NCBI RefSeq assembly: GCF_002161085.1
Contig: NZ_NFLU01000001.1
Location: 124,001 to 188,000 of the forward strand
From: Flavonifractor sp. An112
GTDB lineage: Bacteria > Bacillota > Clostridia > Oscillospirales > Oscillospiraceae
Length of the DNA stretch: 64,000 bases
Reading direction: 5' to 3'
The position numbers were made by a program, and so were the translations under genes. Positions 9,090-48,920 of the stretch are shown piece by piece (position 1 is the first letter of the stretch; the number at the start of each line of letters is the position of its first letter). The notes below the pieces were generated by a model. It was not told the DNA's origin. It made no database searches and worked only from the letters and a program-made list of their open reading frames with translations.

Positions 9090-10439
9090 TTATTTTGCGC
9101 TGTGGCTCTTGGCCTTCTCCAGCAGTTCCTGCTCGATGGCGGCGTCGTCAGACTCCTTCTTGTCGTCGATCCGGGAGATCACGAAGGCGCCGATGAGGCA
9201 GAGCACCACAAACACGCCGTAACCGGCAAACCAGTTGTTGCCGCCGCCCAGACTCTTGCCCAGCACCAGGATGGCAAAGCCGCAGCTCTGGATGATGGTG
9301 GCCAGAGGAGTGCACACCCGGTTGGCGGACATGAACTCATAGCGGCCGAACTTGGAGATGACCATGCTGGGCATCAGGTTGGGGATGCCACCGGCGGTGA
9401 AGCACAGGCAGGCGGTGAGCACGGTACACATAATGACAGGCATCTGGTGCAGGAACATCATGCCGATAAGGAACACCACATAGGCCAGGTTGTAGAACAC
9501 GCCAGCCCGCTTGGTGCCGATGTTGGTGTCCAGCCAGCCCCAGCAGAAGCTGCCGATCAGACCCACCAGGGTGCAGCCGGACAGGATGGCCACCGGCCCG
9601 AAGGGATCGGCGAAATAGCCGGTGCTCATCATACGCACGATGATCTGGCTCATGACGCCGGCGGTGGTGGCCCAGGGGATGCCGAAGCCGATGACGATCA
9701 TCCACACGCTCTTGTTCTTCAGCAGGTCTACAATGGAATACTTGGTCTTGAAGTAGCGAGTCAGGTCCTCCCGGGTGTCCTGATGGGCCCGGTTCTCCGG
9801 ACAGATGTTGTCAGGATAGCAGCCCTTCTCCTCAGGGGTATTGGTCATAAAGATCAGGGTGACAAAGCCCAGCACCAGCAGCACCACAGCCAGGGCGTTA
9901 CAGAAGCCAGTCCAGCCCCAGCTGCCGGCGAAGCACCAGGTCACGAAGGGCACCAGGATCATGCTGGTCAGGGGCAGGCCCATGGTGGTCCAGCCCATAA
10001 CCACGCCCTTCAGGGTGGGGAACCAGGAGCCCACAAAGCCGTGGTGGACGGCAAAGGCCAGACAGGTGCCGAAGATCTGCACGAAAAACAGGCCGATAGT
10101 ATAGTTGGTGAAGTTGGTGATACGGCCGAAGCAGAACACCGCGATAGCCATGCCGAAGCAGGAGGCCACGGCCACCAACTTGGTGCCCTTTTTCAGCACC
10201 AGGGTGGTGAAGAGCAGGCCCAACAGGCAGCAGATGATGCCGATGGGGGTCAGCATATCGCTGGTGATCTCGGTACCGCTGACCTGAGACAGGTAGGCGG
10301 CCAGGCTGGCGCCGTAACCGTTGATGCCGTCCACCGCAAAGGCGGAGTACATCATCTGGTAGACGATACAGATCAGGACCAGAAACCATCCCCAGCCGCC
10401 GAAGTTGACGGCAGAGGAAACCTTATGTTTGTTTTTCAT
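9090..10439 (-). CDS. MFS transporter, OFA-like
   Basis: A 449-residue membrane protein with about twelve helices. It has the same central motif as the first carrier (NTPEEKGCYPDN), so the two are paralogues of the OFA-type group. The ATG at 10439 follows AGAGGAA by six bases and is preferred over the upstream start at 10460. It is followed directly by the esterase. No sigma-54 promoter was found in front of it, so its control probably differs from the first cluster. Confidence 0.85.
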   Translation of the reverse strand: MKNKHKVSSAVNFGGWGWFLVLICIVYQMMYSAFAVDGINGYGASLAAYLSQVSGTEITSDMLTPIGIICCLLGLLFTTLVLKKGTKLVAVASCFGMAIAVFCFGRITNFTNYTIGLFFVQIFGTCLAFAVHHGFVGSWFPTLKGVVMGWTTMGLPLTSMILVPFVTWCFAGSWGWTGFCNALAVVLLVLGFVTLIFMTNTPEEKGCYPDNICPENRAHQDTREDLTRYFKTKYSIVDLLKNKSVWMIVIGFGIPWATTAGVMSQIIVRMMSTGYFADPFGPVAILSGCTLVGLIGSFCWGWLDTNIGTKRAGVFYNLAYVVFLIGMMFLHQMPVIMCTVLTACLCFTAGGIPNLMPSMVISKFGRYEFMSANRVCTPLATIIQSCGFAILVLGKSLGGGNNWFAGYGVFVVLCLIGAFVISRIDDKKESDDAAIEQELLEKAKSHSAK

Positions 10440-10549
10440 ATTCCATTCCTCTTTTCTCATTGAATCAAGGCATCATATCCGGCGCCGAAATGGGTCATGG
10501 GGTTCAAAAGCGCCGCTGCCTGCGCTGATTCTGTTACACGGAACTTACC

Positions 10550-10817
10550 TCAGGGTTCAAAAGAAAAGCCGGACCACACCGGTACGCCGGTGTATTCCTT
10601 GGGGGCCTCGGCGCCGGTCAGGTAGCGGATGGCACCGCTGGCCAGGGCCTCCATCTCAAAGTCGCCGCCGTAGACAATGAAGGGAGCCACCCAACCGGCG
10701 TACTCCTTGACCTTGTCCACAAAGCGCTTGCTGTTGGACACGCCGCCGGTCATGACCACCGCGTCCACCTTGCCCTGGAGCACACAGGCATAGCTGCCGA
10801 TGTTCTTGGCCAGCTGA
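10550..10817 (-). pseudogene. 3' fragment of a butyrate kinase gene
   Basis: The last 89 codons match the C-terminus of butyrate/acetate-type kinases: YQLAKNIGSYA, GKVDAVVMTGG, then FEMEALASGAIRYL and KEYT near the end. The first three quarters of a normal gene of about 355 codons are absent. Directly upstream, in a different frame, lies the CocE-like gene, joined at about 10815-10822. Either a deletion fused the two genes or the assembly did. Confidence 0.75.
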
Positions 10818-12370
10818 TAGCGATGTCCACAGGCACGATCTCGCCCTTGGACAGCTTCAGCTCCCGCTTCTGGGCCAGCACGGGGCAGAACTTGGTGGAC
10901 AGCTTCTCGTCCAGCTCACGGCGGGACACACGCATCTTGCCCCAGGCACCGGGGTGGGGCTCGTTCAGAGTGAACCAGGGAATCCAGCGGCCGGAGGCGT
11001 CTGCCTTCTGAATGTTGACAAACAGGTCCATGTCGTCGTGGCCGTCGGCCTCCACATACAGGCGCAGGTACATATAGCCAGTCAGCTCGGTATCCTCGTC
11101 AAAGGCCATGTCGAACTCCACCTTGCCGGTGTTGCCGTCGTAGGAAATCTGGCTCTCGGTCTCCACAGGGGTGGTCTGGAGGCTGGTGTCGGCGGCGTTG
11201 AGGTAGAGCTTCTTGTACTGGGTGCGCTCCAGGGGGAAGCTGGTCTCGGGACGGCGGTCGGCATGGTCCAGGTCAAAGGCGTCCATCACGTCCACACGCA
11301 CCTTGGGGGTCATCTCCCAGCCGTTGTGGATGTCCTTCAGATAGCGGTCATAGAAGCGCTTCAGATCCTCCAGATTCTCGGGGGTGTAGGTGTCGGGCCA
11401 CTCAAAGTCCCGGTGGATGCGCAGCCACTTGCGGCGGCTCTTGCACCGGCGCCAGGCGTTGATGGAGCCGGGCAGGTGGAAGTGGCTCCAGCCGGCGGTC
11501 TGATAGACGGGGATCTTCACGCTGGCCCAGTCGGCGATCTTGTCCTGCCAGTAGGCGTTCATGAAGGGGTACTTGCGGGCCATGGCCACCTGGTCGTCCA
11601 CGCCGCCGGTACCGGTGACCTGAGCGGCAATGAACTCATTGAAGCTCAGGGCGGGGATGCCGCCCTCGTAGAGGCTCTCACGGAACAGGTCGGTGGTACA
11701 CTCCCAGGGAGCGATGCAGGCCAGGTGGGGGGGCTGCATGGCGGCGATGCCCCACTGGTGCATAGCAACGCCGGAGTTGCCGGACATACCTACCTTGCCG
11801 TTGCACCAGTGCTGCACGGCCAGCCACTCCACGAAGTCGTAGCCGTCCTCCCGGTCCTGGTGAGTAAACATATGTACGTCGCCCTCAGAGTGGCCGGCCC
11901 CCCGCACGTCCACGTTGGCCACCGCGTAGCCCTGGTAGCACCAGTACATGGGGTCGGGGCTCTCGAACTTGGCCATCTTGGAGACGGTGTGAGGGGGGCA
12001 CGCCCATGATCTGCCACTCGCTCATGCCGTCGCCGGGGCGCTTGCCGAACCAGCTCCAGGACACGATGGCGGGATAGGTGCGGCTCTCATCCTTGGGACG
12101 GAAGATATCGCAGTAGATCGTCGCGCCGTCCCGCATCTTCACTGGAACGTCCTGCTCGCACAGGATGCCGGGGGCGGCCTCATAGACACGCTGGTTGAAG
12201 GCAGGGCAGAAGCCCTGACCCATCCGGGCCATGGGGTCGTCGCTGGTGGCCAGGTCGATCTCTTCCTGATTGGCCACCGGCTTGCGGGCCACCCGGTAGA
12301 TGGCCTCCAGCTCCTCGCCGCCGAACACTTCCTTCTTGACTACATATTCACCCTTGGGACACTCTGCCAT
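10818..12370 (-). pseudogene. CocE/NonD-family hydrolase, frameshifted and truncated
   Basis: The protein sequence is that of an X-Pro dipeptidyl-peptidase/cocaine-esterase-like hydrolase. It has an N-terminal strand region, YAVANVDVRGAGHSEG, the nucleophile motif GMSGNSG and a jelly-roll C-terminal domain reaching VPVDIAI. Two lesions are visible. At 11993-11998 a run of six G, where five would keep frame, shifts the reading frame after about 125 codons. At 10818 the C-terminal end is replaced by butyrate-kinase sequence. GAGGAG lies 8 bases before the ATG at 12370. The enzyme would hydrolyse esters or amides in the cytoplasm. The acyl carrier gene lies upstream in the same direction. Confidence 0.75.
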
Positions 12371-15455: not shown

Positions 15456-16358
15456 ATGGATGATAAATTATTAAAAACCTTTCTGGCGGTAGCCGATCAC
15501 TGCTCCTTCACCGCCGCGGCAAAGGAGCTTTATCTGGCCCAAAGCGCCGTCAGCAAGCACATCCACCAGCTGGAAAAAGAGCTGCAAGTCCATCTGTTTG
15601 TGCGGGACACCCGTATGGTCCGGCTGACAGACGCCGGGACCCGCTTCTACCGGGAGGCCACTGATCTGCTGGAGCGGATGGAAAATGCCGCCGCCGCCCT
15701 CCGGCAGGACGCCGCGCCGCTGCCGGACAAGCTGCACTTTGGTGCATTCAGCGCCCTGTCCACCGAGATCACGGACCTGCTCCGTCGGTTTTGCCAGGAC
15801 TTTCCCCAGATTTCCGTCACTCTGGACTGGTTTGAATTCGGCACGCTGGTCCCCACCCTTGTCCATGGGAAGCTGGACGGCGCCTTCACCGTCAGCTTTG
15901 AGCTGCTGGATCAGCCCCGTCTGGCCTCTCAAAAGCTGGAGGACGGCGCCCTGTTCGTGCTGGTAGGAAAGCAAAGTCCCCTGGCTGGCCTGACCACCCT
16001 CCGGCTGGCCGATCTGGCGGGGGCCACCTACTACACCATGCGGCCCGACGTCAGCCCCAACGGTTATGCCAGCATTCTGAACTACTTTCTGGAGCACCAC
16101 TTCCGCCCGTCAGAGACCCGCAGGCTGACCAGCCACGAGTCCGTGCTGCTTCAACTCCAGATCGACCCCAACGGCTACGGCTTGATGAGCGATTTTCAGT
16201 TCCGGCAGCATCCCGGCGTGGTCTTTATCCCACTGGAACAGGAAGAGCAGCCCTCCAGCCATCTGTTTGATCTGGTGGCCGCCTGGGACCGCCAGCTGGT
16301 CACCCCCGCCCTATCCTCCTTTCTCAACTGGCTGGCCAACTATGCCCCACCCGGCTGA
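15456..16358 (+). CDS. LysR family transcriptional regulator
   Basis: A 300-residue regulator with an N-terminal winged helix-turn-helix (residues 1-60; FTAAAKELYLAQSAVSKHIHQ) and a C-terminal periplasmic-binding-like effector domain from about 90. The ATG at 15456 is preceded by AGGAGAGAG and matches the usual N-terminus of the family. It faces the AEC transporter gene across 125 bp, so it probably activates that gene when a carboxylate is bound. Confidence 0.9.
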   Translation: MDDKLLKTFLAVADHCSFTAAAKELYLAQSAVSKHIHQLEKELQVHLFVRDTRMVRLTDAGTRFYREATDLLERMENAAAALRQDAAPLPDKLHFGAFSALSTEITDLLRRFCQDFPQISVTLDWFEFGTLVPTLVHGKLDGAFTVSFELLDQPRLASQKLEDGALFVLVGKQSPLAGLTTLRLADLAGATYYTMRPDVSPNGYASILNYFLEHHFRPSETRRLTSHESVLLQLQIDPNGYGLMSDFQFRQHPGVVFIPLEQEEQPSSHLFDLVAAWDRQLVTPALSSFLNWLANYAPPG

Positions 16359-16390
16359 TCTCACACCATTCCGTTCAACCGCATGATAAT

Positions 16391-16428
16391 AAAAGCCACC
16401 TGCGCCCTTTGGTGCGCAGGTGGCTTTT
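16391..16428. terminator. Bidirectional intrinsic terminator
   Basis: A 15-bp perfect stem (16391-16405 with 16414-16428) followed by T on the plus strand and preceded by A. It lies between the convergent LysR and TIR-STAND genes. Confidence 0.87.
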
Positions 16429-16434
16429 TGCAGT

Positions 16435-18909
16435 TTAAGTATCCGCCCCGAAAAAATCCATTTTCTGCTTTACCGACTCAATCCTGTCTGAATCCTTTCC
16501 AAACAGTTTTTCTACCATGGAAATAACCGCCATATAAGCGTTGGAGGCCTCGCCATAGCGCCCCTGCGCGGCATACAGGTCGCCAAGCATCTCCTGATTC
16601 TCAATGGTATCCGCCGCAAGGGCTCCCCGCATACGCTGATTGATCTCCAGGGCCCGTACAAGTTTATCTTCCGCCTGTGTCCACTGAACCCGCGCATCCT
16701 CTCCGCGCCCATCTGCCTCCGCTTCCAGGCCCAGGTGATAATGAGATACGCCCTGATCATACAGCGAATAAGCAAGTCCTGACGGGTTTCGCTCTGATAG
16801 TGTCCGCTCATGCAGCAGGGTACATTCCAGCGCCTTCTGATAGTTCCCCTGTCTCTGGTACATCCGACCCATTTCCATATAGGTTTCGCCCACCCGCTCC
16901 TGAGCCAGTGCCAGGTCATACTGCTCATTTTTCATGAGCATATCCCGCTTCTCTCCCCGCTCCAGGGCTGCAATGTTGCGCTGGCGAATGGCAAGGGCCT
17001 GTTGAAAATAGGTCTGCGCCTTGTCAAAGTCCTGGTCGTACTCCCAGGTATAGCAGCGGGCCACCTTTTCATAAGCCATAGCCAGATCCTCATTTTCCGG
17101 CATACCGCTGCGGAGCATTAGCTCCAGTCCCAGTCGGTACCAGGGGATGGATTCCTTATTGCGGCGGCTGTTGAAGTAGCATCCTCCCAGGTTTTTCGCT
17201 GCGTAGCCGGTCATGGGGTTGTCCTCTCCCAGCTGTTTGCGGCAGGCATTATAAAAACGATGGGCATTTTCAATGGATGCATCAAAACGCCCGACCTGCC
17301 ATAGAAAGCCGGAGATCGGCTCAAAGGCATCGATTGCCCGGGTATCCGGCTCCGGAAAATAATCCGCCAGAGCCAGCACACTGTCGGTAACCGCCAGATT
17401 TTCCTGATAGGGCCGCAGCCAGGCAGTGAACAGGAACCGGGACATATTGTCCAGGAATTTGCCGCACTGATCCACATCAGGCCTCAAAACCGCATGGACC
17501 ACCTCGATTACCAGAGGATGCAGAGAGATCCGTCTTTCTGCCCCTTTCAGCACCCAGCTCTTGCGGATCAGCTGATTGATGGGCTCAAAGGAAGGCAGAT
17601 CCATCCACTCCCGAAAACGGACCGCAGGCACACCGCTGTGCCCCATCAGAGACAGGCAGCGCAGGATCTGCTTCTCCTCGTCACTCAGGTTACTGGTATT
17701 AAACACTGAGCAGATATGCCCAAAAGCGGTATTTACAGACTGTCGGCCGGATACGGTCTCCGCCAGTCCGCTTTGCATATCTCCCTGCTCCAACAGTGCC
17801 AACATCTCGTCCGCACTGAGAAAGCTGGCGCTCATCTGCTTGGCAATCAGTTCCACCGTATAAGTGTGGCAGGCAATCCTGTCAAAAATCTTCTTCAGGC
17901 TGTCCTTGTCGCCCTCTTCCACACACTCGCCATAGTTTTTCTGGAAAATGTCCAGCAGCACATCAAAATCCTGCATGGCCTCCACCCGGAGCGCCGGATA
18001 TCCCGGATGGGCATTGCGGGTGGTAAAGATCACATGGTAGCTGCCCTCCAGGAATTTGTCCAGGTCCGGGTCCCCATCCACATCAAAATTATCTACGATC
18101 AGCAAGGTTTTCTCACTGGTAATGCTCTGCAGCACCCGCAGCTTCCGCAGGAAAAAGGCCCGCTCATCTTCTGTGGGCTTCTGCGGCTCCAGATTCTCAA
18201 TGGAGACCGCCTCTTCGTCGCAAACCAAGCGCTGGAGGCTGCCCTGATAGCTGACAAACAGCGTCTGCTCGTATTCCTTTTGGAATCTTAACGCATATTG
18301 CTTTGCCAGTTCGCTCTTCCCGATACCGCCGATCCCCTCCAGAAAGATGCAACGTTTCCCCTGAGCAAGGTGAGCGTGAATCTGCTCCAAAAGTGTCTCT
18401 CTGCCCTCAAATACATCTCTGGCCTGGGGCATACGGGCCAGCAGTCGATATTGACGGATGGGGCTTTGCGTCTGCTGTGTACGCTCTCCCTTTTTCTTGC
18501 CCAGCAGCATCTCCAGGCGCTCCACCAGCTCATCGATGCGCTTATACATGGGCGGCGTCATAGCATCGATCCAGTGCAACCGGCCCAGATAATACTGGGC
18601 CTCCTCACCGATCTCATCATCGGCTACATGGAATGGGATAATCTTTACTTCTTCATTCCGGGTAAGTCTGCGGCTCACCATGTCGATTTCGTTCAGCACA
18701 TGAACAGACTCCGATGCCTGACGATTCAGGATCAGGAGAAAAATTGCGCACTGATTGATCGCTTTTACAATGCTGGAGGCATACGCGCCCTCTGTATTTC
18801 TGGGCGCATACCAGCAGCGAACGCCGTCGGCCTCCAATTTATTGACAATACCTTCCACAATATGCAAGGAGGACGCGGTATGATGGCTGACAAATACATC
18901 AATTTCCAT
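16435..18909 (-). CDS. TIR-STAND NTPase-TPR protein (NLR-like, probable anti-phage)
   Basis: An 824-residue cytoplasmic protein with three parts. Residues 1-135 form a TIR domain (starts EIDVFVSHH), with a glutamate at 74 in SVHVLNEI at the place of the catalytic residue of NAD-cleaving TIR domains. Residues about 165-480 form a STAND/NB-ARC-like ATPase: FEGRETLLEQI, P-loop GIGGIGKSE (192-200), Walker B LLIVDNFD (269-276), VIFTTRN, and an MHD-like HPLVIEV. From about 540 to 810 come tetratricopeptide-like repeats (for example YFQQALAIRQ, ALECTLLHERTL, KLVRALEINQ). The plan is that of plant NLR receptors and bacterial STAND defence proteins: the repeats sense, the ATPase oligomerises and the TIR depletes NAD. 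It is transcribed alone with its own terminator. A regulatory rather than defensive role is possible. Confidence 0.85.
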   Translation of the reverse strand: MEIDVFVSHHTASSLHIVEGIVNKLEADGVRCWYAPRNTEGAYASSIVKAINQCAIFLLILNRQASESVHVLNEIDMVSRRLTRNEEVKIIPFHVADDEIGEEAQYYLGRLHWIDAMTPPMYKRIDELVERLEMLLGKKKGERTQQTQSPIRQYRLLARMPQARDVFEGRETLLEQIHAHLAQGKRCIFLEGIGGIGKSELAKQYALRFQKEYEQTLFVSYQGSLQRLVCDEEAVSIENLEPQKPTEDERAFFLRKLRVLQSITSEKTLLIVDNFDVDGDPDLDKFLEGSYHVIFTTRNAHPGYPALRVEAMQDFDVLLDIFQKNYGECVEEGDKDSLKKIFDRIACHTYTVELIAKQMSASFLSADEMLALLEQGDMQSGLAETVSGRQSVNTAFGHICSVFNTSNLSDEEKQILRCLSLMGHSGVPAVRFREWMDLPSFEPINQLIRKSWVLKGAERRISLHPLVIEVVHAVLRPDVDQCGKFLDNMSRFLFTAWLRPYQENLAVTDSVLALADYFPEPDTRAIDAFEPISGFLWQVGRFDASIENAHRFYNACRKQLGEDNPMTGYAAKNLGGCYFNSRRNKESIPWYRLGLELMLRSGMPENEDLAMAYEKVARCYTWEYDQDFDKAQTYFQQALAIRQRNIAALERGEKRDMLMKNEQYDLALAQERVGETYMEMGRMYQRQGNYQKALECTLLHERTLSERNPSGLAYSLYDQGVSHYHLGLEAEADGRGEDARVQWTQAEDKLVRALEINQRMRGALAADTIENQEMLGDLYAAQGRYGEASNAYMAVISMVEKLFGKDSDRIESVKQKMDFFGADT

Positions 18910-19100
18910 GAATGCTCACTTCTCCTTCCCATTTGGTTGCCGCTCCCGACCCAATATGCAGCAAATGATTCTCGCCACAAGGCCTTCCGATATTTTACAG
19001 ATTGTCAATTATTATACTACACCTTTGTCCTTTCTACAACTATCCCCTTTCTTCGCACAGCAAGAAAACTCTGCGAAATCCCATTGCGGAGTTCAAATAA

Positions 19101-19135
19101 AAGCGGGGCGGAAGTCAAAAACTTCCGCCCCGCTT
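19101..19135 (-). terminator. Intrinsic terminator after the SLH gene remnant
   Basis: A 15-bp stem with a 5-base loop is followed by T-rich sequence on the minus strand, 30 bp after the stop of the SLH gene. Confidence 0.82.
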
Positions 19136-19164
19136 TCGGAGGAGAAACGCCTATTGGCAGATGC

Positions 19165-19966
19165 TTATTTCTCGTTTTCCGCAAATCGCATAAGGATGGT
19201 TGCAATCTCAGCCCGGGTAGCAGTACCGGTGGGGTCAAGCTTACCGCCGTCCTTGCCGGTGAGCAGACCGGAACCAACCGCCCACTCCATAGCCTCAGCG
19301 GCCCAGGAGGAGGTACCGGTGCTGTCAGCGAAGGTGGTCAGGTCGCCCTTGTCAGACACATCGTAGCCCTTGCTCTCAGCGTAGCGGTACAGGATGGTAG
19401 CCAGCTGTTCGCGGGTCACGGTGTCGTTGGGAGCAAAGACGGTGTCGCTGTAGCCCTTGACAATGCCCTTGGAGGCGGCCCAGTTCACAGCGTCGGTGTA
19501 CCCACACACCGTTCTCCACATCGGTGAAGGGCAGGGTGGCGTCGGTCTCAGGCTGACCCTCCAGCCGCCACAGGATGGTGACGACCATGGCCCGGTTGGT
19601 GGTCATGAGGGGAGCAAAGGTGGTGGTGGAGGTGCCGTCCATCAGCTTATTGTCATAGACGTACTTCACCGCCTCATAGAACCAGTCGCCGGACTTCACA
19701 TCAGTGAAGGGCAGGCCGGTCTCCACGGGGGTATCGTCCTTAGTGAAGGAGGCCTTCACGGTGACATTGCTTCTGGGCATTCTGAAGGTATACTTGCTGT
19801 CGCCCTTGTCAGTCACGGCAACGGCGTTCCCCTTGGCATCGGTAACGGTAACACCATCGGCCTTGTAGCCCTCGTCGGGAGTCAATGTTACAGTGACTGT
19901 CAACCCGGCAGAAGGACGGCTGTTGGACACCTTCACAGTACCGTTGGAAGATTCCTCGACTGTCAC
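19165..19966 (-). pseudogene. SLH-domain surface protein, 5'-truncated and frameshifted
   Basis: The sequence encodes a bacterial repeat domain (VTVTLTPDEGYKADGVTVTD) followed by three S-layer-homology domains (LPFTDVKSGDWFYEAVKYVY; WAASKGIVKGYSD; SWAAEAMEWAVGSGLLTG). SLH domains hold proteins on cell-wall polymers. There is no signal peptide or start: the frame opens within another gene's end at about 19970. A GGG (19501-19503 on the plus strand as CCC) where GG would keep frame shifts the reading between the first and second SLH domains. It is a 3' remnant of a larger surface protein, joined to foreign DNA. Confidence 0.78.
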
Positions 19967-19977
19967 ATTATAGCGGG

Positions 19978-20502
19978 TTACAATACTCCGTATGGTGTGA
20001 TGACTCCATTGCCCTCATCAATGAGGAGCAGGGCAGTTTCATAGCCGTCAAGGGCGTCCAGCTCCTCTTTGCTGGCGCAGCCGCCATTCAGCACCATGTA
20101 ATGATCTCTGCCGACCTGCTCTAAATCAGAAAAATCTGTGATGACCGTGACCTGCTGGCAGGAAAATGTCAAGTTGATCAGGTCGGTCATGTCGGAATAG
20201 TCGTAGCTGACCGCCGCCCCCTGGAACTGAGCACCCTCCTGTGCATAACAGAAGCTGTCCAGCCGCTTGGCCAGATAGTCCAGCTCGTCGATATTTACAG
20301 GTTTTCCCTCCAGTCGCTTCAGGATGGGGTACTCACCAAGGATCTCGTCCATTTGGCAGTCCCTCGCCAGGGGATCTCCCATGTCCATCGCATTCAGCGC
20401 CTCCATGATTCCGTCATACTGGTTGTGCGGGATTGGGAGGGGAACGGTAAACTGTCCGTACTCGGGATGCTTCGGATTTGATAACACAGCATTCATTCTC
20501 AT
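19978..20502 (-). CDS. Mobile-element-associated protein, probably truncated
   Basis: A 174-residue soluble acidic protein. Wording such as VLSNPKHPEYGQFTVPLPIP, DELDYLAKRLDSF and INLTFSCQQVTVITDFSDL belongs to a family I associate with integrative conjugative elements of gut Clostridia, sometimes labelled antirestriction (ArdA-like). I cannot confirm that name. GGAGG lies 6 bases before the ATG. The protein ends in ITPYGVL exactly where SLH-gene sequence begins, so its own last codons were probably lost at that junction. It is the second gene of a pair with 20525-21182. Confidence 0.55.
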   Translation of the reverse strand: MRMNAVLSNPKHPEYGQFTVPLPIPHNQYDGIMEALNAMDMGDPLARDCQMDEILGEYPILKRLEGKPVNIDELDYLAKRLDSFCYAQEGAQFQGAAVSYDYSDMTDLINLTFSCQQVTVITDFSDLEQVGRDHYMVLNGGCASKEELDALDGYETALLLIDEGNGVITPYGVL

Positions 20503-20524
20503 CGTATTCCTCCAATGCCGAGCC

Positions 20525-21182
20525 CTACATCTCCATCTGAGGGCTATAATCCTGTCTGTGTTCCAATTGGGTGTCCAGGTCAGGGACAGAGAACTCGATT
20601 TTGATTCTGGCTTCTTGAATGGCTCTTATCTGTTTGTCATTCAAATTTGGGTCTTCTGCCAACAGATGATCCGTTGCACGATAAATCTCTGTCAACTCCT
20701 CATTGGAGAAGAGACTGGCTTTGGGGATCAGACCAGAGCGGACAGCGAAGTCCCGTTTGGCTCCTGCAAAATCATCCTCATAATAGTGCCCATGGCTGAC
20801 GCCGACCCTTTCATAATCCCAGATCCATGTAACGAACTCATAGCCCCGGCCGGTGCCTCGCTCTCTGCCCGCCAGCACAGCCCCGCCGAAATCCGCAAGC
20901 AGATGAAACTTATTGTCAAGACCACGAGCACGGAGCAGGGGGGTCCATAGCCTCCACATATTCAAATACTCTGTCGGCTGCAATGGCGACCCTGTGATAC
21001 AGCTCGTTGGCCTCTGGATTCTTGCTCCCGGACGGAAGCATAAATACTTCGTTCCCAGGAGAAACAGAAAGGACAGGCTGTCCATGGAGAAAAATCTCCA
21101 GCCGCCTGTCCTCTTTGCTAAGGGATTCAATTTGCTCCTTTCCGAGACACCGGGATAGTTCCTCAAAAAATTTACTCCCCAC
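20525..21182 (-). pseudogene. Mobile-element hypothetical gene, frameshifted in a G run
   Basis: GTG at 21182 follows GGAGG by six bases. About 80 codons run to AAADRVFEYVEAMDP. A run of six G at 20938-20943, where five would keep frame, then shifts reading, and the second frame continues LLRARGLDNKFHLLADFGG, RGYEFVTWIWDYER and HGHYYEDDFAGAKRDFAVRSG to 20525. I recognise this as a conserved conjugative-element hypothetical but know no function. The gene is followed after 22 bases by 19978-20502 and probably formed an operon with it. Confidence 0.6.
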
Positions 21183-21296: not shown

Positions 21297-21340
21297 AAAA
21301 CAATAACTCACACAGCATTGACTGTGTGAGTTATTGTTTT
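21297..21340 (-). terminator. Terminator beyond the tRNA-Ala 3' fragment
   Basis: A perfect 19-bp stem (21297-21315 with 21322-21340) and a 6-base loop directly abut the tRNA fragment. It was probably the original terminator of tRNA-Ala(GGC) before island 1 entered. Confidence 0.8.
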
Positions 21341-21386
21341 GGTGGAGATAAGCGGGATCGAACCGCTGACCTCTTGAATGCCATTC
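21339..21386 (-). repeat. att repeat: 3' end of tRNA-Ala(GGC), distal end of island 1
   Basis: The 48 bases are identical to 27809-27856, the 3' part of the complete tRNA-Ala(GGC) from the anticodon arm to CCA, in the same orientation. Tyrosine integrases that use tRNA 3' ends leave just this pattern: an intact gene at one border and a 3' copy at the other. The island lies between. Confidence 0.88.
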
Positions 21387-21408
21387 TCTCCCCCACCCAC
21401 TTTTCCAG

Positions 21409-21436
21409 AAAAACGGGCCGGAAACGGCCCGTTTTT
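21409..21436. terminator. Terminator-like hairpin inside the island border
   Basis: An 11-bp stem (21409-21419 with 21426-21436) ends in T5. No gene is clearly associated with it. Confidence 0.55.
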
Positions 21437-21613
21437 CCTAGTTTTTTACCCCCTTTCAGGGAGGCAGTTTGGGGCAATTCCACTCGGATTCCACTTTTTT
21501 CGAGAACTTTTCAGGGGTGAGAATGGCAGGCAATTTTCCCCCACCTCCGGGGTCGGGACGGCGCGTAGAGCCTTGATGCACAAGGTCCTGCGCGCCGAAT
21601 GGTGTAAAAAATT

Positions 21614-21825
21614 GTGGGAAAATCCGGGTAAAGCTGCATCCCGCCAGTAGAGCGTGGCTGTCAGACGCCTATGTCCATCCAGCGTGGGAAAATCCGGGTA
21701 TTGTGCAAACCGATATTTATGGAAATATATGTAATATTATTAGCCCGAATTGCGGGAAAATCCGGGTAATTGGAAGTTCCCTGTTTACAGGATTCTCCCC
21801 TCGCCATGTGCGGAAAATCCTGTAA
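21614..21825. repeat. Four spaced copies of GGGAAAATCCGGGTA
   Basis: GTGGGAAAATCCGGGTA occurs at 21614-21630 and 21684-21700, with GCGGGAAAATCCGGGTA at 21752-21767 and a weaker copy (CGGAAAATCCTGTAA) at 21811-21825. All are in one orientation, 70, 68 and about 58 bases apart. They begin 230 bp inside the att border, the place of integrase arm-type or excision-factor sites. They may also be iterons. Otherwise the stretch 21437-22050 holds nothing I can identify. Confidence 0.6.
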
Positions 21826-22050
21826 TAGTTTGCGTGTGCTCGTCATGGCTTTCTGGAATGTCAAAAAAGCATCGCTCAAATATACAACTATACAACCAAT
21901 TTGGTGGATGAAATGAGCGATGCGCGATCTCAATTGCTGCCGTCTGAATTCTGGCCAGAGGATAAATTGTCCCAATTGTTGGACATATCTGCTATTACAC
22001 TACAAATAGGCGGTACACCCATCCTGTATTGCAGAAAGGAGCGCATTCTA

Positions 22051-22218
22051 ATGTGTGGATTTTGGGAAGACCTTTTTGATTTTAACGGCGACGGCACGGT
22101 CGACGCAGGAGAAGAGTTTCTGGCTATGGTCATGATGGAAGAAGGATATCGTGAACTACAGCAAGACACTGATGACCCCTGGAAGGATTCCGAGACCAGA
22201 ATAAATTCGGATTGGTGA
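22051..22218 (+). CDS. Small EF-hand-like protein
   Basis: A 55-residue protein starting MCGFWEDLFDFNGDG. The stretch DFNGDGTVDAGEE is a full calcium-binding EF-hand/dockerin loop (D, N, D at positions 1, 3, 5 and E at 12). AAGGAG lies ten bases before the ATG. Small proteins with the same LFDFNGDG start are common in gut Clostridia, and their role is unknown to me. A terminator follows at 22256. Confidence 0.55.
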   Translation: MCGFWEDLFDFNGDGTVDAGEEFLAMVMMEEGYRELQQDTDDPWKDSETRINSDW

Positions 22219-22255
22219 TTCTGATGGTTTCCAAGCTCAATGCACGCGAATATCT

Positions 22256-22298
22256 TATCGGAGCCCTTTGCGATAGCAAAGAGCTCCGATATTTTGTC
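22256..22298 (+). terminator. Intrinsic terminator after the EF-hand gene
   Basis: A long stem (arms 22256-22270 and 22277-22291, one internal mismatch) followed by TTTT. Confidence 0.7.
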
Positions 22299-22299
22299 G

Positions 22300-22495
22300 T
22301 TGATGGGAAACATTTGGCCACGTTCTCGCAGAAGCGCATGAGCATGGTCGCAACCTGCGCGCGAGGCACCGTGCTGGTGAGATTCAGCATGGTGGCCATC
22401 ACGCCTGTGATGAGGCCTACAGCTTTGGCTCTGGCCACGGCATTCTTGGCGTAAATGCTGACGTTGTTGATATCGCTGTAGACGCTCGAAGGCAT
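22300..22495 (-). pseudogene. SLH-domain remnant
   Basis: About 65 codons on the minus strand read YSDINNVSIYAKNAVARAKA, VGLITG and RAQVATMLMRFCENV, the end of a decayed S-layer-homology domain. No start, signal peptide or other domains are present. It lies inside island 1 and may mark an earlier rearrangement. Confidence 0.55.
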
Positions 22496-22582
22496 TGTCT
22501 GAGAATCAAAAAAATCTTTGGGAGTGCTTACTTACAAGCCCGCACATAGTTATTGTTTTAGAATTTAAATTCTCAATTTCTA

Positions 22583-22591
22583 TGTTATAAT
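22583..22591 (+). promoter_or_regulatory. Extended -10 promoter of the XRE gene
   Basis: TG-T-TATAAT (22583-22591) lies 47 bp before the start codon at 22638, in a very AT-rich stretch. No convincing -35 is seen, which is usual for extended -10 promoters. Confidence 0.55.
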
Positions 22592-22637
22592 AAAGCAGTA
22601 GTTTTATAGGTTCACCGTAATAATAAGGAGTGTAACG

Positions 22638-22844
22638 ATGGCTGTTAGATATGACAAGCTATGGTATATCTTGAAGGAACGGAATATGTTGAAAACTGAT
22701 TTAATAAGAGAGGCAAAAATTACAACAAACGCAATGGCTAGACTTGGAAAAAATGAGGATGTTCGAATAGAAGTTCTGGCAAAGATATGTAAGACACTAG
22801 ACTGTACATTGGACGATATTGTGGATATAAACCCCAAAGAATAA
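22638..22844 (+). CDS. Small XRE-type helix-turn-helix regulator
   Basis: A 68-residue Cro/CI-like DNA-binding protein whose whole length is the HTH domain (LIREAKITTNAMARLGKNED, then LAKICKTLDCTLDDIVDI). AAGGAG lies 8 bases before ATG. It is the first gene of the island's cargo in the direction of the CARF operon and may repress it. A 285-bp gap without a gene separates them. Confidence 0.85.
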   Translation: MAVRYDKLWYILKERNMLKTDLIREAKITTNAMARLGKNEDVRIEVLAKICKTLDCTLDDIVDINPKE

Positions 22845-23129
22845 ATGTCAAGTTTTGCGGTTTGCCTCGCTATATAGAAATAGATCTGATAAAGAGGATA
22901 CTTTTTATTGAGGCATAATTACTGCACGGAAGTTCAGCAATATTTCATAATGGTGGTTTCCTTGATGATTCGACGAAATACGTAAGAGCCGAACATAACA
23001 GTGCATCTATTCGAGCCAAGACAAGGTTGCCGTTTGTATCTAATGAATAGAAAAGAAGTATGAGCAGACCAACGAGCAAAACAGATAACTCGAATATAAA
23101 AACGGAAATTAGCTTAAGGGGAAATAACG

Positions 23130-23747
23130 ATGAAGAAAACCGTTCTTTGTAATATTCCAATGAAAGAAAAGGTTGATTTTTCTGTATACACAAGTGACGA
23201 CCAGTCTCTTCCGGTTTCTGGGAAGGCCGTCCGCTATCCAATCAATTCCTTCTTAGCTGAAACAATACGCCCGGATGATGAGATAAAAGTCATTCTCTTA
23301 GTTAAAAAAGATCAGTATGGTCATTATGAGAAAAACACAGAAGACTTCTGTGCCGAACTCAATAGTGTTAATGCTTCTATTGGGGCAACACTCGATATAA
23401 ATATTATCGATACTGAATTTGAAGAGACAAAAGCAACTCATGAGTATTTGCTGGGTCAGATTGTTGATTGCCTTGATACTGGGACCCACATTCTCGCAGA
23501 CACAACCTATGGCCCCAAAGATCTTCTGGTTGTACTATTTACAGCCTTACACTTTGCTGAAAACTTTCTCGATTGCTCCATAGATAGCATCGTTTATGGC
23601 CAAGCAAGTTTTGTTGATGGCCAAGCCGTTAATACGAAGATATGCGACATGGTTCCATTGTATTGTCTTAGCACCATCACTAATACGCTTCATTGTTCAA
23701 CACCAGATAAAGCAAAGAAAATGCTGAAAGCACTTCTGTCATTGTAA
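23130..23747 (+). CDS. CARF-like ligand-sensor protein (Csx/TM1812-type fold)
   Basis: A 205-residue protein. Its second half has the layout of CRISPR-associated Rossmann-fold (CARF) sensors: a strand ending in the polar signature ILADTTYGPKD (121-131, the D-x-T-x-G-p-R/K motif), a long helix, SIDSIVYGQASF and a final helix after MVPLYCLSTITNTL. The N-terminal half is another alpha/beta unit. No nuclease, HTH or membrane part follows, so it would act as a sensor or ligase-like subunit, not as an effector. CARF folds usually bind cyclic oligonucleotides; that ligand is inferred. No CRISPR array or cas gene lies in the window. The next gene starts 13 bases later, in one operon. Confidence 0.62.
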   Translation: MKKTVLCNIPMKEKVDFSVYTSDDQSLPVSGKAVRYPINSFLAETIRPDDEIKVILLVKKDQYGHYEKNTEDFCAELNSVNASIGATLDINIIDTEFEETKATHEYLLGQIVDCLDTGTHILADTTYGPKDLLVVLFTALHFAENFLDCSIDSIVYGQASFVDGQAVNTKICDMVPLYCLSTITNTLHCSTPDKAKKMLKALLSL

Positions 23748-23760
23748 TACGGGTGGCACA

Positions 23761-24639
23761 ATGCAATACGATAAGAAAAAATATGAACGACAGATAAAGG
23801 AATCACGTCTGTTTGAGTTAGATAGGGAAACACAATATACAGCTTTCAAGCGTGAAGCCTACAAAATGGTGGAGTATCTGTACTGTTATTTGTTAGCTGT
23901 AAACAAACAGAAATATGAAGAATACGGATGTGAAATTACCAAGATTGCAACTCTTTGTATAAATAACTTTAGAAGAGATAAGGGCGATTTTCTTCATTAC
24001 TTCAATGCAGCCTGGAAGCTTGAATATCAACATATTATGGGTAATCAGACACATATAGAAAGATTTCATGGTTTAAAAGTCACCGAGGAAGAGAAGCGTG
24101 CAGTAAGTAAATATATACGCTTGGCAACAAATATAGACGCGGGGATATCGGATGAAACACTGTATCTAAAATTAGCTGCAGCAATGGAGATTCCGGTAGA
24201 AAAAGTACGTAAACTTGCGCAGATGGCCATTGTGCAGATATCAAGTGACACATATGTAAATGAGGCTGGAGAGATAAGAATTATTTGGGATCAATTGGCT
24301 GGCAACATATCTGCTGAAGCTTCAATTTATGAGAAAGAAACTATAAAAGAAATCCTTTTCGCTATCAATCAGGTATTTCAAGGATTACAACAAAGGCAAA
24401 AACCAATAATTTCAGATATGATTACGATTAAGCTTTGTGACCAGCTTTCTGAAACGCAAAGCAGCCAATACTCATTTGTCAGTAAAGAGATTATGGATGC
24501 TTGGACAACAACAGGTGTTCTTCCTACACAAAGAGAAATCGCAAAGAAATATGGCCGAGATGAAGCAAGCATTAGTCGTTCAGTAAAGGATTTTTTGAAC
24601 AAGCTAAGAAAAGAGGTTCGTTTGGATGGGATTAAATAG
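23761..24639 (+). CDS. Sigma-factor-like DNA-binding protein
   Basis: A 292-residue protein with two parts like sigma-70 family regions 2 and 4. Near residues 70-95, RRDKGDFLHYFNAAWKLEYQ resembles region 2. Near the end, LPTQREIAKKYGRDEASISR is a clear helix-turn-helix followed by a basic tail. The middle is helical and unlike housekeeping sigma factors. Its place between the CARF gene and the kinase-phosphatase genes suggests it is the transcription output of the signalling operon, perhaps regulated by phosphorylation. It overlaps the next gene by 14 bases. Confidence 0.6.
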   Translation: MQYDKKKYERQIKESRLFELDRETQYTAFKREAYKMVEYLYCYLLAVNKQKYEEYGCEITKIATLCINNFRRDKGDFLHYFNAAWKLEYQHIMGNQTHIERFHGLKVTEEEKRAVSKYIRLATNIDAGISDETLYLKLAAAMEIPVEKVRKLAQMAIVQISSDTYVNEAGEIRIIWDQLAGNISAEASIYEKETIKEILFAINQVFQGLQQRQKPIISDMITIKLCDQLSETQSSQYSFVSKEIMDAWTTTGVLPTQREIAKKYGRDEASISRSVKDFLNKLRKEVRLDGIK

Positions 24640-25321
24640 TTATGTCGCAAGAGAGCCACGTCCCTTGCCAATTTTTGTACTGGCAGATACTTCTGGTAGC
24701 ATGCGAGGTGAAAAAATCAACGAGCTCAACCTTGCTCTTCGAGAGATGCTTAATGCGTTGAACGCAGCAGATGATATTAGAGGAAAATTTCAATTATCTG
24801 TTATTACTTTCGGCGGGGATGTAAAAGTACTTCAGCCCCTGGCAGATATAGATGGCCTGGTTTTAACAGAGCTTGGCGCTACGGGAAATACCCCTATGGG
24901 TCAGGCGTTCGATGTAGTCTGTGAAATGATAGAGGATAGAAATGTTGTCAGTTCTCGTGCATATACACCGACAATTGTGCTGATCAGTGATGGTTTACCT
25001 ACAGATTGCACTGAGGAAATGTATCGTAGGAAGAACTATTTTGATTGGGCGCCATTGGTTGCTCTTCATAAGGGCGAGAGATCTTCAAAGTGCCAGCGCA
25101 TGGCGTTGGGCATTGGCGAGGATGCCGATGTTGAGATGCTGAAAAGCTTCATTGATAATCCAGAGATGCCGGTAATCAAAACACAAGATGCATCCGGAAT
25201 AGCTAAGTTTTTTAAATGGGTTACCATGTCAACAGTAGCAAGAATGACAAGTATGAATCCAAATGAGATTAGTGTTATGGCCCCTATGTTTGATATTGAC
25301 GATGAGGATATTGTCATATGA
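24626..25321 (+). CDS. von Willebrand factor A protein, TerY-like
   Basis: A 231-residue vWA domain with an intact MIDAS metal site: DTSGS (21-25), a threonine in GATGNTPMG near 92 and an aspartate in LISDGLPTD near 128. This is the TerY type found beside PP2C phosphatases and kinases in TerY-P triads. It overlaps its neighbours (14 bases with the sigma-like gene, 4 bases as ATGA with the phosphatase), so the proteins are made together. vWA domains of this kind act as metal-dependent protein-binding scaffolds. Confidence 0.85.
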   Translation: MGLNSYVAREPRPLPIFVLADTSGSMRGEKINELNLALREMLNALNAADDIRGKFQLSVITFGGDVKVLQPLADIDGLVLTELGATGNTPMGQAFDVVCEMIEDRNVVSSRAYTPTIVLISDGLPTDCTEEMYRRKNYFDWAPLVALHKGERSSKCQRMALGIGEDADVEMLKSFIDNPEMPVIKTQDASGIAKFFKWVTMSTVARMTSMNPNEISVMAPMFDIDDEDIVI

Positions 25322-26055
25322 TTTCCAAAGAAGAACAGCACGGAGATCTGTATGCTGTTGTGATTACCGACACCGGAATATCCCATCGATTATCCAATAC
25401 TCCCAATCAGGATGCTGTTCTTTACGCTTTTATGGAAGATGACTTTGTGTTAGCGGTTTCTGATGGTGTTGGATCATGCCCGAAAGCCGCTCTTGGGTCA
25501 AAAATGGCTGTGAGAGCCGCTGTAAAAGTATTTGAACAAATAAGGCAAAATCGATGTCAGAAGCACGAGCTTCCCCAACGGCTGATTGCTGAATGGACAA
25601 GCCTTTTGAATGGAGAAAAGCTGGACGATTGCTGTGCAACGCTTAAGATTGCAATGAAGTTATATGATCGAATGGTTCTTGTTTCCCTTGGAGATGGGGT
25701 GTTGGTTATGACTTCAAATGGTCTAAAGGTAAAAGCTCCTTCGGATGAGATGCCATTTGCTAATCAAACGAGATGTTTAAGTTCGTTTGTGAGTTCGAAA
25801 GAGATATGGATTGAAGAAGTCCATTTAGATTTGCATATTTCTTATGTAGTGTTTATGTGTACTGATGGTATCGCAAATGGACTACGGGACGGCAGTGAAT
25901 ATGAACTAGTCAGAGAAATTGAAGAGAACACGCCTACTGAAAAGCTAAAAGATGAATTGGAACTACTAACAATTGACATTTCTGATTTTAGCTTGGATGA
26001 CAGAACGTTAGGGGTGGTTAAGTGTGAGTGTAAGAATGCAGGACCTGAGCGGTGA
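25318..26055 (+). CDS. PP2C-type protein phosphatase
   Basis: A 245-residue metal-dependent Ser/Thr phosphatase with SNTPNQDAVLY (the N-Q-D metal motif, about 26-36), VLAVSDGVGS (about 44-53), a central SLGDGVLV and a C-terminal CTDGIANGL and DDRTLGVV. All main metal-binding aspartates are visible, so it should be active. It overlaps the kinase gene by 32 bases. It probably removes phosphates placed by the kinase encoded next, on the vWA, sigma-like or other partner. Confidence 0.87.
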   Translation: MISKEEQHGDLYAVVITDTGISHRLSNTPNQDAVLYAFMEDDFVLAVSDGVGSCPKAALGSKMAVRAAVKVFEQIRQNRCQKHELPQRLIAEWTSLLNGEKLDDCCATLKIAMKLYDRMVLVSLGDGVLVMTSNGLKVKAPSDEMPFANQTRCLSSFVSSKEIWIEEVHLDLHISYVVFMCTDGIANGLRDGSEYELVREIEENTPTEKLKDELELLTIDISDFSLDDRTLGVVKCECKNAGPER

Positions 26056-27442
26056 GATAATAACTTCTGTAGAAGGGACAAAATACAAATTAGGTGAACT
26101 TGCCGGTTATGGTGCTCAGGGCGTTGTTTATCAGGCAGAGAACAGCAGTAAGATGATTAAGCTCTACTATCCAACAGGATCGGATATTGTTGACTCGGAG
26201 ATTCTCGAACGATTGAGCTTTATTAAAAACGTAAAGGTTCCACCTAATTTTGTGGCAATACATGAACTAATAGAGGCACCATATGTTGGATATGTAATGG
26301 ATCGTGTTGTTGATCACCGTCCTCTCAATACGTACCTAATTCCTGACAAAAATCTTTCCTTCGCTGAATGGTATAACCAAGGTTTCGGCTTGCGAGAAAG
26401 AATATTTTTAGGCTATCTTATAGCCAAGGCTTTTGGAGCTCTTGAAAGAAGCAACCTATCATATTGCGATATTTCCGGTAATAACATTTTAGTTAAAATC
26501 GGCAAGGGCGCCTCAATAAAGATGATCGATGTTGATAACATCTATGTTGCAGGTAAAGGCAATGCAGCCGTGTTGGGAACTCCACGATACATTGCGCCAG
26601 AGGTAATCAGTCGCCAGAAGAATCCCGACGTTTTATCAGATAACTATTCGTTAGCAGTTATTCTTTTCGAATTGCTTCGTGTAGGTCACCCTTATATCAG
26701 CGATGAGGTCCTCGATGGTTCACCAGAGGATGAAGAAGCTGCATTGGCCGGAAAAGTTACTTATGTAACCGATGAGAATTCTACCAATATGCTCCCTGCA
26801 GATATTGTCCTGACTGTAAAGCTAAAAGAACTATTCCGCAAATGCTTTGTCGATGGTAAAAGAAATCGCATGGCAAGACCATCTGCCCAGGAATTCGAAT
26901 TTGCACTACTCGAAGCTAGCAACAAGGTGATCAAGTGTCCTTCCTGTGGTGCATGGCACTATCCGCGCAAAGCCAATCGTGTTTATAGTGGATGTCCTTG
27001 GTGTGATGCACCTTCAAAGCCAAAAGCCAGATTAAACTTTTATGACGTTCTTTCCGAGGGCAGTGATTACAGAAAAGGTACGCCCCTGGATGGCAGCACA
27101 AAAGGTAAGCTTGTAAATTCGTATATTCTCAGAGAAGGCAAAAATCAGATAAAAAGTCTTTATGTATTACGAGCTGATGATCCATCAAAGGCTATCAGAG
27201 CAGCGGACAACTACCTGACAATTGCCAAGGACTCAAAAGGATATTGGGCCTACAATGAGTTCTCAAAAAATAACATTGTAGTTAAAAAATACCAGACCGG
27301 AGAATATCATAGGATCGGCATCAAAAAAGCGATTCTGCTCGATAACGGCGATGCCATTTATTTTGAAATGAATGTAACAATTGAGGTTGGTGGAAAACAG
27401 TACTCCTTTATTCGAATGGCAAGATTTATGGAGGAAACGTAG
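26024..27442 (+). CDS. Ser/Thr protein kinase with zinc ribbon (TerY-P kinase)
   Basis: A 472-residue protein. Residues about 20-290 form a kinase: glycine-rich loop AGYGAQGVVYQ, a lysine at about 46, catalytic loop YCDISGNNILV with D149 and N154 (HRD changed to YCD), metal-binding D in IDVDN (DFG changed) and an APE-like IAPEV. A zinc ribbon follows (CPSCG ... CPWC, about 305-327), then a C-terminal beta-rich domain of about 140 residues. Kinase plus C-terminal zinc ribbon next to PP2C and vWA is the hallmark of TerY-P triads. Translation may start at GTG 26024 or ATG 26036, both inside the phosphatase gene. Confidence 0.85.
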   Translation: MSVRMQDLSGEIITSVEGTKYKLGELAGYGAQGVVYQAENSSKMIKLYYPTGSDIVDSEILERLSFIKNVKVPPNFVAIHELIEAPYVGYVMDRVVDHRPLNTYLIPDKNLSFAEWYNQGFGLRERIFLGYLIAKAFGALERSNLSYCDISGNNILVKIGKGASIKMIDVDNIYVAGKGNAAVLGTPRYIAPEVISRQKNPDVLSDNYSLAVILFELLRVGHPYISDEVLDGSPEDEEAALAGKVTYVTDENSTNMLPADIVLTVKLKELFRKCFVDGKRNRMARPSAQEFEFALLEASNKVIKCPSCGAWHYPRKANRVYSGCPWCDAPSKPKARLNFYDVLSEGSDYRKGTPLDGSTKGKLVNSYILREGKNQIKSLYVLRADDPSKAIRAADNYLTIAKDSKGYWAYNEFSKNNIVVKKYQTGEYHRIGIKKAILLDNGDAIYFEMNVTIEVGGKQYSFIRMARFMEET

Positions 27443-27761
27443 TGAAGATATCAGAAATCTATTCAGCTATGGGGCTGAAAATAAAACTGAATTATGAGGA
27501 TACATCTGCCAACTTCCAGGAAGGCAACTTGATACGTATCGAGGCCTCCCACGAAATCAGGACCTTTCTTGTGAGCCAGTATGGCGAAGGCGTATCTAAT
27601 TGTAAAACTGTGCTGTGCAAGGCAAGTCCTAACACTGCAGATTATTTGGCAGACCTCTTTGAGGGTGAACATGAGGACGCATACAGATGTATGTTTCTGA
27701 TCGTTGGTATAGAACCCGGGAGTCTGGAAGTACAGGCATATACATTCAGATTGGGAAATAA
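27442..27761 (+). CDS. Unknown last gene of the CARF-kinase operon, end uncertain
   Basis: GTG at 27442 overlaps the kinase stop codon by one base (TAGTG), so it is translationally coupled. About 105 codons encode an unrecognised soluble alpha/beta protein (KISEIYSAMGLKIKLNYED; DAYRCMFLIVGIEPG). In the given sequence the frame has no stop before the island's terminator and continues through it and the antisense of tRNA-Ala to 28086. One more G at 27753-27755 would give a stop TAA at 27759-27761, just before the terminator. I take that as the natural end. The alternative is truncation at the att site. Confidence 0.55.
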
Positions 27762-27796
27762 AAAAAGACTTGAAACCGAAGTTTCAAGTCTTTTTT
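27761..27796. terminator. Bidirectional terminator at the island 1 border
   Basis: A 16-bp perfect stem (27761-27776 with 27781-27796), a CGAA tetraloop and A/T runs. It ends the island operon on the plus strand and the tRNA-Ala transcript on the minus strand. Confidence 0.9.
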
Positions 27797-27809
27797 CACT
27801 CTCTCGAGT

Positions 27810-27885
<76 letters not shown>

Positions 27886-31497: not shown

Positions 31498-31530
31498 AAA
31501 GAAGCACCTGCAAATGCAGGTGCTTCTTTT
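31497..31530 (+). terminator. Terminator after tRNA-Ala(CGC)
   Basis: A stem of up to 16 bp (31497-31512 with 31515-31530) with a 2-base loop and T run, supplied by the island. Confidence 0.82.
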
Positions 31531-48861: not shown

Positions 48862-48920
48862 GGGAGAGCGTACGGTTCGCATCCGTAAGGTCGTCGGTTC
48901 GATCCCGATTGGGTCCACCA
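48862..48920 (+). repeat. att repeat: right end of island 2
   Basis: A 59-base copy of the tRNA-Ala(CGC) 3' part (one mismatch to 31439-31497), from the end of the D arm to CCA, without the 5' part of the tRNA. Confidence 0.88.

Follow-up and report, generated by a model that had tools for sequence, protein, structure and literature searches.

The locus examined here raises the question of whether a bacterial receptor that joins a TIR domain, an NTPase and TPR repeats in one gene works alone by destroying NAD, or whether it may pass a signal to a second protein. The window (the whole stretch of 64,000 nucleotides that was analysed) carries one such gene, which an earlier note, made from the sequence alone, had singled out; its surroundings, its relatives and the genes adjoining those relatives were analysed, together with the occurrence of a second family of proteins carrying a RyR domain.

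Gene architecture and conserved motifs

The gene is a single intact open reading frame with an ATG start and no internal stop codon (Table 1). In Pfam the TIR_2 match exceeded the curated cut-off, as did TPR_12 (E 6.3e-23), and several TPR families were matched. NB-ARC (E 2.4e-4; 20.9 bits against a cut-off of 23.5) and AAA_16 (E 2.6e-5) fell below their cut-offs, so that the protein lies outside the NB-ARC (AP-ATPase) clade as defined by a Pfam NB-ARC match above cut-off. The NTPase and TPR parts together resembled FxSxx_TPR at 85.5 bits against an NCBIfam cut-off of 300, which leaves the protein outside the FxSxx-COOH TPR proteins (FxsT). A DNA-binding domain was not found among the listed Pfam matches of the TIR-NLR protein, and its best PADLOC match of any kind had an E value of 0.006.

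Table 1. Positions of the TIR-NLR gene, its domains and motifs, and the flanking transcription and translation signals in the window.
Feature	Position	Strand	Basis
TIR-NB-ARC-TPR gene, 824 aa	16435-18909	-	ORF, Pfam, orthologs
TIR domain, residues 5-118	18556-18897	-	Pfam TIR_2 E 9.4e-13; profile matches to solved TIRs, NADases first
E74 codon, predicted catalytic glutamate	18688-18690	-	invariant in 20/20 rows
NB-ARC/STAND NTPase core, residues 169-299	18013-18405	-	sub-threshold Pfam NB-ARC and AAA_16; RPP1 fold match
P-loop GIGGIGKS, residues 192-199	18313-18336	-	sequence and ortholog alignment
H464 in HPLV motif	17518-17520	-	nearly invariant, ortholog alignment
Helical TPR region, about residues 479-816, presumed sensor	16462-17475	-	Pfam TPR stretches; model helices; TPR structure matches
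Ribosome site AAGGAG	18922-18927	-	read from sequence
Hairpin with U-rich tail, after SLH gene, upstream of TIR gene	19100-19136	-	RNA fold z -7.3
Hairpin with U-rich tail, after TIR gene	16391-16428	-	RNA fold z -6.6

The predicted catalytic glutamate sits in the motif LNEID; each of the 25 TIR rows of a first alignment (read by eye) has it, as does every row of the second (Table 1). In an alignment of 11 ortholog rows, including two fragments cut by contig ends, residues G192 and G194-S199 of the P-loop were invariant. The HPLV motif at H464 is presumably MHD-like. Both the glutamate and the P-loop were thus intact at the positions given in the earlier note and conserved in the alignments, and the order of TIR, NB-ARC-like NTPase and TPR that it had described was borne out by Pfam and by the motifs. 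Its observation of an intact TIR-NTPase-TPR gene is confirmed, and its interpretation as a whole is partly supported. By domain order the protein is a single-gene TIR-STAND-TPR (TIR-NLR) protein, with an NTPase that is below the Pfam cut-off, has an intact P-loop and matches the fold of RPP1. In its conserved glutamate the TIR resembles the NADase TIRs, and homology together with E74 supports the prediction of a NAD-consuming TIR.

Predicted fold

Structure prediction had been proposed as a check, and the AlphaFold model of the TIR-NLR protein reached a mean pLDDT of 77.6 and a pTM of 0.50. The top Foldseek match was the plant TIR-NLR RPP1 (E 3.5e-8; TM-score 0.23, rmsd 22.7 over the whole chain), the low TM-score being expected if the placement of the domains differs. 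The TIR domain was aligned with the RUN1 TIR at Z 16.9 and rmsd 2.5 over 137 residues (VIA-align), the TPR region matched MalT domain III at Z 18.8, and Avs5 structures stood at ranks 34 and 47 of the Foldseek list. The resemblance to plant NLRs that had been claimed therefore holds at the level of the fold, the plant-like order in itself being nothing new.

A profile of 20 TIRs searched against solved structures matched NADase TIRs first, with Cat1 on top (E 3.1e-12), and also TIR-STING, SPARTA TIR-APAZ, Roq1 and SARM1/tir-1 chains; in the Cat1, TIR-STING and SPARTA alignments the E74 column was paired with Glu. The same profile matched more weakly scaffold TIRs such as TLR2 and MyD88, which are not known as enzymes, and this counts against the NADase reading. 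The PDB chain 9m0n (824 aa, named tetratricopeptide repeat protein) was matched over its N-terminal TIR and was not among the listed matches for the full-length query.

Distribution and selection

When one genome of each species was scanned, 10 loci with relatives (53-80% identity) were obtained from 23 pattern matches; eight of the relatives were near full length and the other two were cut by contig ends. The orthologs came from Oscillospiraceae, Lachnospiraceae and unplaced Clostridia, several of them from animal gut samples. In the order sample, 27 of 394 genomes gave a match at E 1e-10, and a full-length relative above 50% was found only in the window's own genome and in G089. Two of 20 genus genomes gave a match, namely the window's own and G401 (35%, residues 2-504), the ortholog itself being confined to the former; at E 1e-60, matches were obtained in 4 of 391 genomes of the class sample and 5 of 300 of the family sample. 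Such a rare and patchy occurrence across the samples indicates that the gene is accessory.

Omega was 0.07-0.09 against L002 and L003 and 0.13 against L004, with dS saturated. Against L002 and L003, the two nearest pairs, dN was 0.05-0.06 in the TIR and 0.15 in the TPR region, a 2.6-3.1-fold difference. These values strongly indicate that the protein is kept by purifying selection, with the TIR most constrained, and together with the identity of the relatives they make the intact architecture more than a matter of chance. The possibility that the gene is a relic or pseudogene was ruled out by this strong purifying selection. The TPR region is not fast-evolving, unlike many arms-race sensors, and this counts against an immune reading.

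A phage-borne origin was unsupported, the phage records giving three partial matches, all below 33% identity; viral contigs yielded no confirmed relative in a single-protein scan and one confirmed TIR-only relative (32%) in a profile scan. A plasmid-borne origin was likewise rejected, none of the 15 records with partial matches covering 80%. No near DNA match to positions 16000-20000 of the window was found in E. coli.

Local surroundings

The terminator-like hairpins on both sides of the gene (Table 1), neither of which was listed by the pattern scan, suggest that it is transcribed alone and probably forms its own transcription unit; a promoter scan gave 5 matches against 2.2 expected. The immediate neighbours are a LysR-like regulator (by eye), which is present in one of 20 same-genus genomes, and fragments of an SLH surface gene. 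Among the adjacent genes there was no ThsA (SIR2-SLOG or TM-macro) of the kind that adjoins the TIR gene in Thoeris.

Decayed surface-protein and mobile-element genes had been named as neighbours. The former stand, since the SLH surface gene beside the TIR gene is broken across two frames (19165-19966), and the latter are unproven, positions 19978-21166 having given no match in Pfam, PADLOC or PHROGs. A gene related to it (38%) adjoins the TIR-NLR gene of the ortholog L003. Two tRNA-associated stretches are bounded by repeats. The first (21339-27885) lies within a 48-bp exact repeat of the 3' end of tRNA-Ala(ggc), is low in GC and contains CARF, sigma-like, VWA, PP2C and protein kinase genes, which make it a candidate conflict island. 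The second, a possible island at about 31.4-48.9 kb, lies between two copies of a 61-bp repeat (98%) of tRNA-Ala(cgc), at 31439-31499 and 48862-48922. These positions rule out the TIR gene as part of a tRNA island and agree with its earlier placement outside both. In a same-genus comparison for an empty site (4 genomes, 5 stretches), DNA similarity began at the tRNA and extended rightwards; the only other similarity was that of the tRNA fragment and of one SLH stretch in G071 (67%).

RyR-domain genes adjoining TIR-NLR genes

Neighbours of six orthologs were scanned with Pfam. Eight of the ten were ordinary metabolic, transport or RNA-modification genes, so that the loci are not defence islands, and two, the genes upstream of the L006 and L007 orthologs, carried a RyR domain. 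All flanks were then searched with the L007 protein and subsequently with a profile built from the first RyR genes found by that query, the own-genome gene included; L082 is the L002 contig and was counted once. A RyR-domain gene (PF02026-like) directly adjoined the TIR-NLR gene on the same strand in six of 22 genomes (7 of 25 gene copies), upstream in L002, L006, L007, L081 (two) and L083 and downstream in L087. No adjacent RyR gene was seen in the other 16, among them L084, where the contig starts about 0.2 kb upstream of the TIR-NLR gene and adjacency cannot be judged. Further RyR genes were absent from the 410 kb of the 23 stretches, window included, and the window gene itself has no RyR neighbour. 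The description of the gene as stand-alone is correct for the window copy, but the six genomes named hold an adjacent RyR gene and the window's own genome holds an unlinked one (see below). Tandem TIR-NLR paralogs were present in L079, L080 and L081, and in L081 a RyR gene precedes each.

On a 24-row tree, from which the fragment L011 was left out, the adjacency label required at least six gains or losses, and RyR adjacency is therefore not one inherited synteny. In six of the seven adjacent RyR proteins, one or more hydropathic segments at the N-terminus are combined with a large middle region. One of the two L081 proteins (9936-11720), encoded upstream of a TIR-NLR gene, has no hydropathic segment and shows an HD-like motif by eye, with no Pfam match. 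The Pfam RyR family was matched above cut-off by the proteins of L007 and L083 and by one of L081 and just below it by that of L006, and those of L002 and L087 and the other L081 protein were missed. A profile of three partners matched a solved bacterial RyR-like protein as well as the RyR repeat domains of animals (E 1.6e-13). The model of the L007 RyR partner had a mean pLDDT of 42, and among five RyR proteins the sole PADLOC 2.0.0 match was a weak one to pPIWI_RE_Y (E 0.002).

Reverse search and co-occurrence

PF02026 was found in 30 of 388 order genomes, at 31 loci. In eight of these loci a TIR lay beside the RyR domain or was fused to it: next door in L125, L129, L130, L134, L140 and L141, about 0.7 kb off in L147 and fused in L126. 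The fused gene (L126 5799-7820, G029) encodes one protein with TIR_2 (395-498) and RyR (595-667). Same-genus control stretches (5, about 99 kb, 4 genomes) contained neither TIR nor RyR. A search with the L002 partner gave matches in 2 of 295 genomes (G221 and G015). In G221 (L092 5123-9742), the RyR partner homolog is followed by a two-TIR gene with a frame break before its repeats; in G015 the match is close to a contig end, and no TIR was seen near it by eye. In L141, L143, L145, L146, L148 and L151, RyR proteins of about 100 aa are encoded beside large RyR proteins, and the small one might be an off-switch.

For the co-occurrence count, TIRs similar to that of the window at E 1e-10 were listed, and the order samples of 394 and 388 genomes were taken as the same set, as judged by shared handles only. 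RyR was present in 10 of 13 genomes with a TIR-including match and in 20 of 375 others (Fisher p 3.9e-10), and in 7 of 9 against 20 of 375 after removal of the four linked-pair genomes (p 1.3e-7), in a test that treats genomes as independent and ignores phylogeny, the 13 TIR genomes spanning nine families. None of the 14 genomes with an NB-ARC-only match had RyR. Of the three TIR genomes without a RyR match, two (the own genome and G064) hold RyR genes beyond the reach of Pfam. This TIR subfamily thus has a strong genomic association with RyR-domain proteins.

RyR gene of the window's genome

A RyR gene unlinked to the TIR-NLR gene is present in the own genome (G000:C39:21315-23102); its 596-aa product has several hydropathic segments in the N-terminal part. 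The neighbours of this gene appear by eye to be purine-synthesis and other ordinary genes, and no TIR was found by profile in the 16-kb stretch around it. PF02026 finds nothing in this genome though the divergent RyR gene is present, and Pfam therefore misses part of the group. A RyR gene of this type occurred in one of 20 genus genomes, the sole one with a TIR-NLR ortholog. Over most of its length the protein shared 47-48% identity with RyR proteins of G089 and G187, two genomes with unlinked TIR-NLR relatives of their own; it was also 47% identical to the G337 protein and 35-42% identical to the proteins of G080, G245 and G197, genomes in which no such TIR was seen. A RyR partner acting at a distance in the window's genome is plausible from this gene content; counting against it, four of the eight genomes with the own-type RyR protein have no TIR match of the window's subfamily, and G401, of the same genus, carries its TIR-NLR relative without the own-type RyR gene.

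Ligand-residue pattern of the RyR domains

In a 2026 preprint, phage RyR-domain proteins (RyDEP) are reported to bind or cleave 2'/3'cADPR, with H75, W78, H100 and D117 as ligand residues, and no mention of bacterial TIR-RyR pairs was seen in the sections examined (PMC13232231). In the TIR-linked RyR domains, counted without the fused protein, the first H was present in 16/16, W in 16/16 and D in 15/16 (one gap), and the third position was H in 10, T in 4 and N in 2. The correspondence was drawn from residue order and spacing, with no RyDEP alignment, and in L007 the distances from H to W (3) and from H to D (17) equal those of RyDEP, that from W to H being 27 against 22. The pattern H-x-x-W, H, D also occurs in most RyR domains without a TIR link and does not single out the linked ones. 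RyDEP proteins and the bacterial partners have in common a RyR domain with H, W, H and D in like order; the former are phage-borne counter-defence, whereas those found here are bacterial, mostly have hydropathic N-termini and lie beside TIR genes (PMC13232231).

Discussion

The gene is best read as a bacterial TIR-NLR immune switch, in whose family the TIR product is most likely read by a RyR-domain protein, plain NAD depletion being the simpler alternative; we hold this overall reading at about even chances. The TPR superhelix would sense a ligand, probably a phage product, whereupon the NB-ARC-type NTPase would bind ATP and presumably oligomerise. The clustered TIRs would then cleave NAD+ at the predicted catalytic E74, and an ADP-ribose derivative from this cleavage would be read by a RyR-domain protein, mostly membrane-anchored, whose gene is linked in some genomes and, for the window's genome, would be the unlinked one on contig C39. 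We infer in this way both an antiphage role of the window gene and signalling from TIR to RyR. The adjacency counts and the unlinked RyR gene of the own genome imply that the TIR may make a messenger and not only deplete NAD, chemical signalling thus being a possible output of the receptor. The most specific form, in which the NLR senses infection, the TIR makes a messenger of the cyclic ADP-ribose type and a membrane RyR protein reads it, receptor and reader being encoded apart here, is put forward tentatively.

According to Rousset et al. 2022, P4-like satellites encode a single-gene TIR-STAND-TPR 'TIR-NLR' that is antiphage in E. coli, with TPR sensing, NTP-driven oligomerisation and NAD loss proposed for it (PMC9122126). 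As in the window, one gene there encodes an N-terminal TIR, a central STAND NTPase and a C-terminal TPR region (PMC9122126), and the architecture therefore has a known and tested precedent. The likeness is one of architecture and description; the window gene is chromosomal in Clostridia, no phage satellite was seen, and its family is sometimes paired with RyR genes. As proposed for the E. coli protein, the window gene could encode a single-gene abortive-infection NADase whose activation drains NAD+, the co-occurrence with RyR being coincidental or due to other TIR genes. The E. coli system protects alone (PMC9122126), the window gene is probably transcribed alone between terminators, and most of the 22 genomes show no adjacent RyR gene, all of which favours this possibility; the co-occurrence and adjacency counts, the TIR-RyR fusion and the lack of RyR in the NB-ARC-only genomes make it somewhat doubtful.

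The RyR neighbours might instead counteract the TIR signal by binding or destroying it, in the manner of immunity or off-switch proteins, a role that would fit both NADase readings. Several RyR proteins, among them those beside TIR genes in L140 and L141, measure about 100 aa and could serve in counter-defence or immunity, which counts against an effector, and the phage RyR domains described above bind or cleave 2'/3'cADPR; the N-terminal hydropathic segments and large middle region in six of the seven adjacent proteins suit an effector better, and the opposing role is unlikely. A regulator of cell physiology outside immunity, of the MalT or FxsT kind with a TIR added, would agree with the MalT and FxSxx_TPR resemblances, the ordinary neighbours of the orthologs and the conserved TPR region, and is rather improbable given the listed Pfam matches, which include no DNA-binding domain, the intact TIR glutamate under the strongest constraint and the very patchy distribution.

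The reading as a TIR-NLR switch with a RyR reader can be set beside other known systems. The plant TIR-NLRs RPP1, RUN1 and Roq1 also have a TIR followed by NB-ARC; they carry a C-terminal LRR, whereas the window protein is bacterial, has TPR repeats in that place and is about 14-17% identical. For Thoeris with TM-macro ThsA, one report proposes that the TIR product activates a membrane effector through a nucleotide-binding domain, as is suggested here, the difference being that in the present family the TIR is fused to an NLR-type sensor and the candidate receiver is RyR, not macro (PMC11204291). Avs5 and other antiviral STAND proteins share the STAND switch with the window protein, which differs in its N-terminal TIR and NB-ARC-type core (PMC12931631). 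By architecture the window gene is of the bacterial TIR-NLR kind, and through the RyR association it becomes a variant in which a second messenger may act as an intermediate step.

What is new is the association of this TIR-NLR family with RyR genes, the architecture itself being already known. The work of Burroughs et al. 2015 is said to be relevant to the TIR-RyR question, and an earlier prediction there is possible; at the level of titles and abstracts, no TIR-RyR operon was found described in the literature. RyR is not mentioned in PMC9503650.

The association provides a rule for finding TIR-linked systems, namely to seek RyR neighbours. If the proposed signalling is true, it would amount to cADPR-to-ryanodine-receptor signalling in a bacterial form, coupled to NLR sensing of the plant type, and NLR immunity would gain a bacterial two-step form, in which the NLR-TIR makes a messenger and a second protein executes, as in plants. 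If TIR products switch bacterial RyR proteins, a direct action of cADPR-type molecules on ryanodine-receptor domains would become testable in a small soluble domain.
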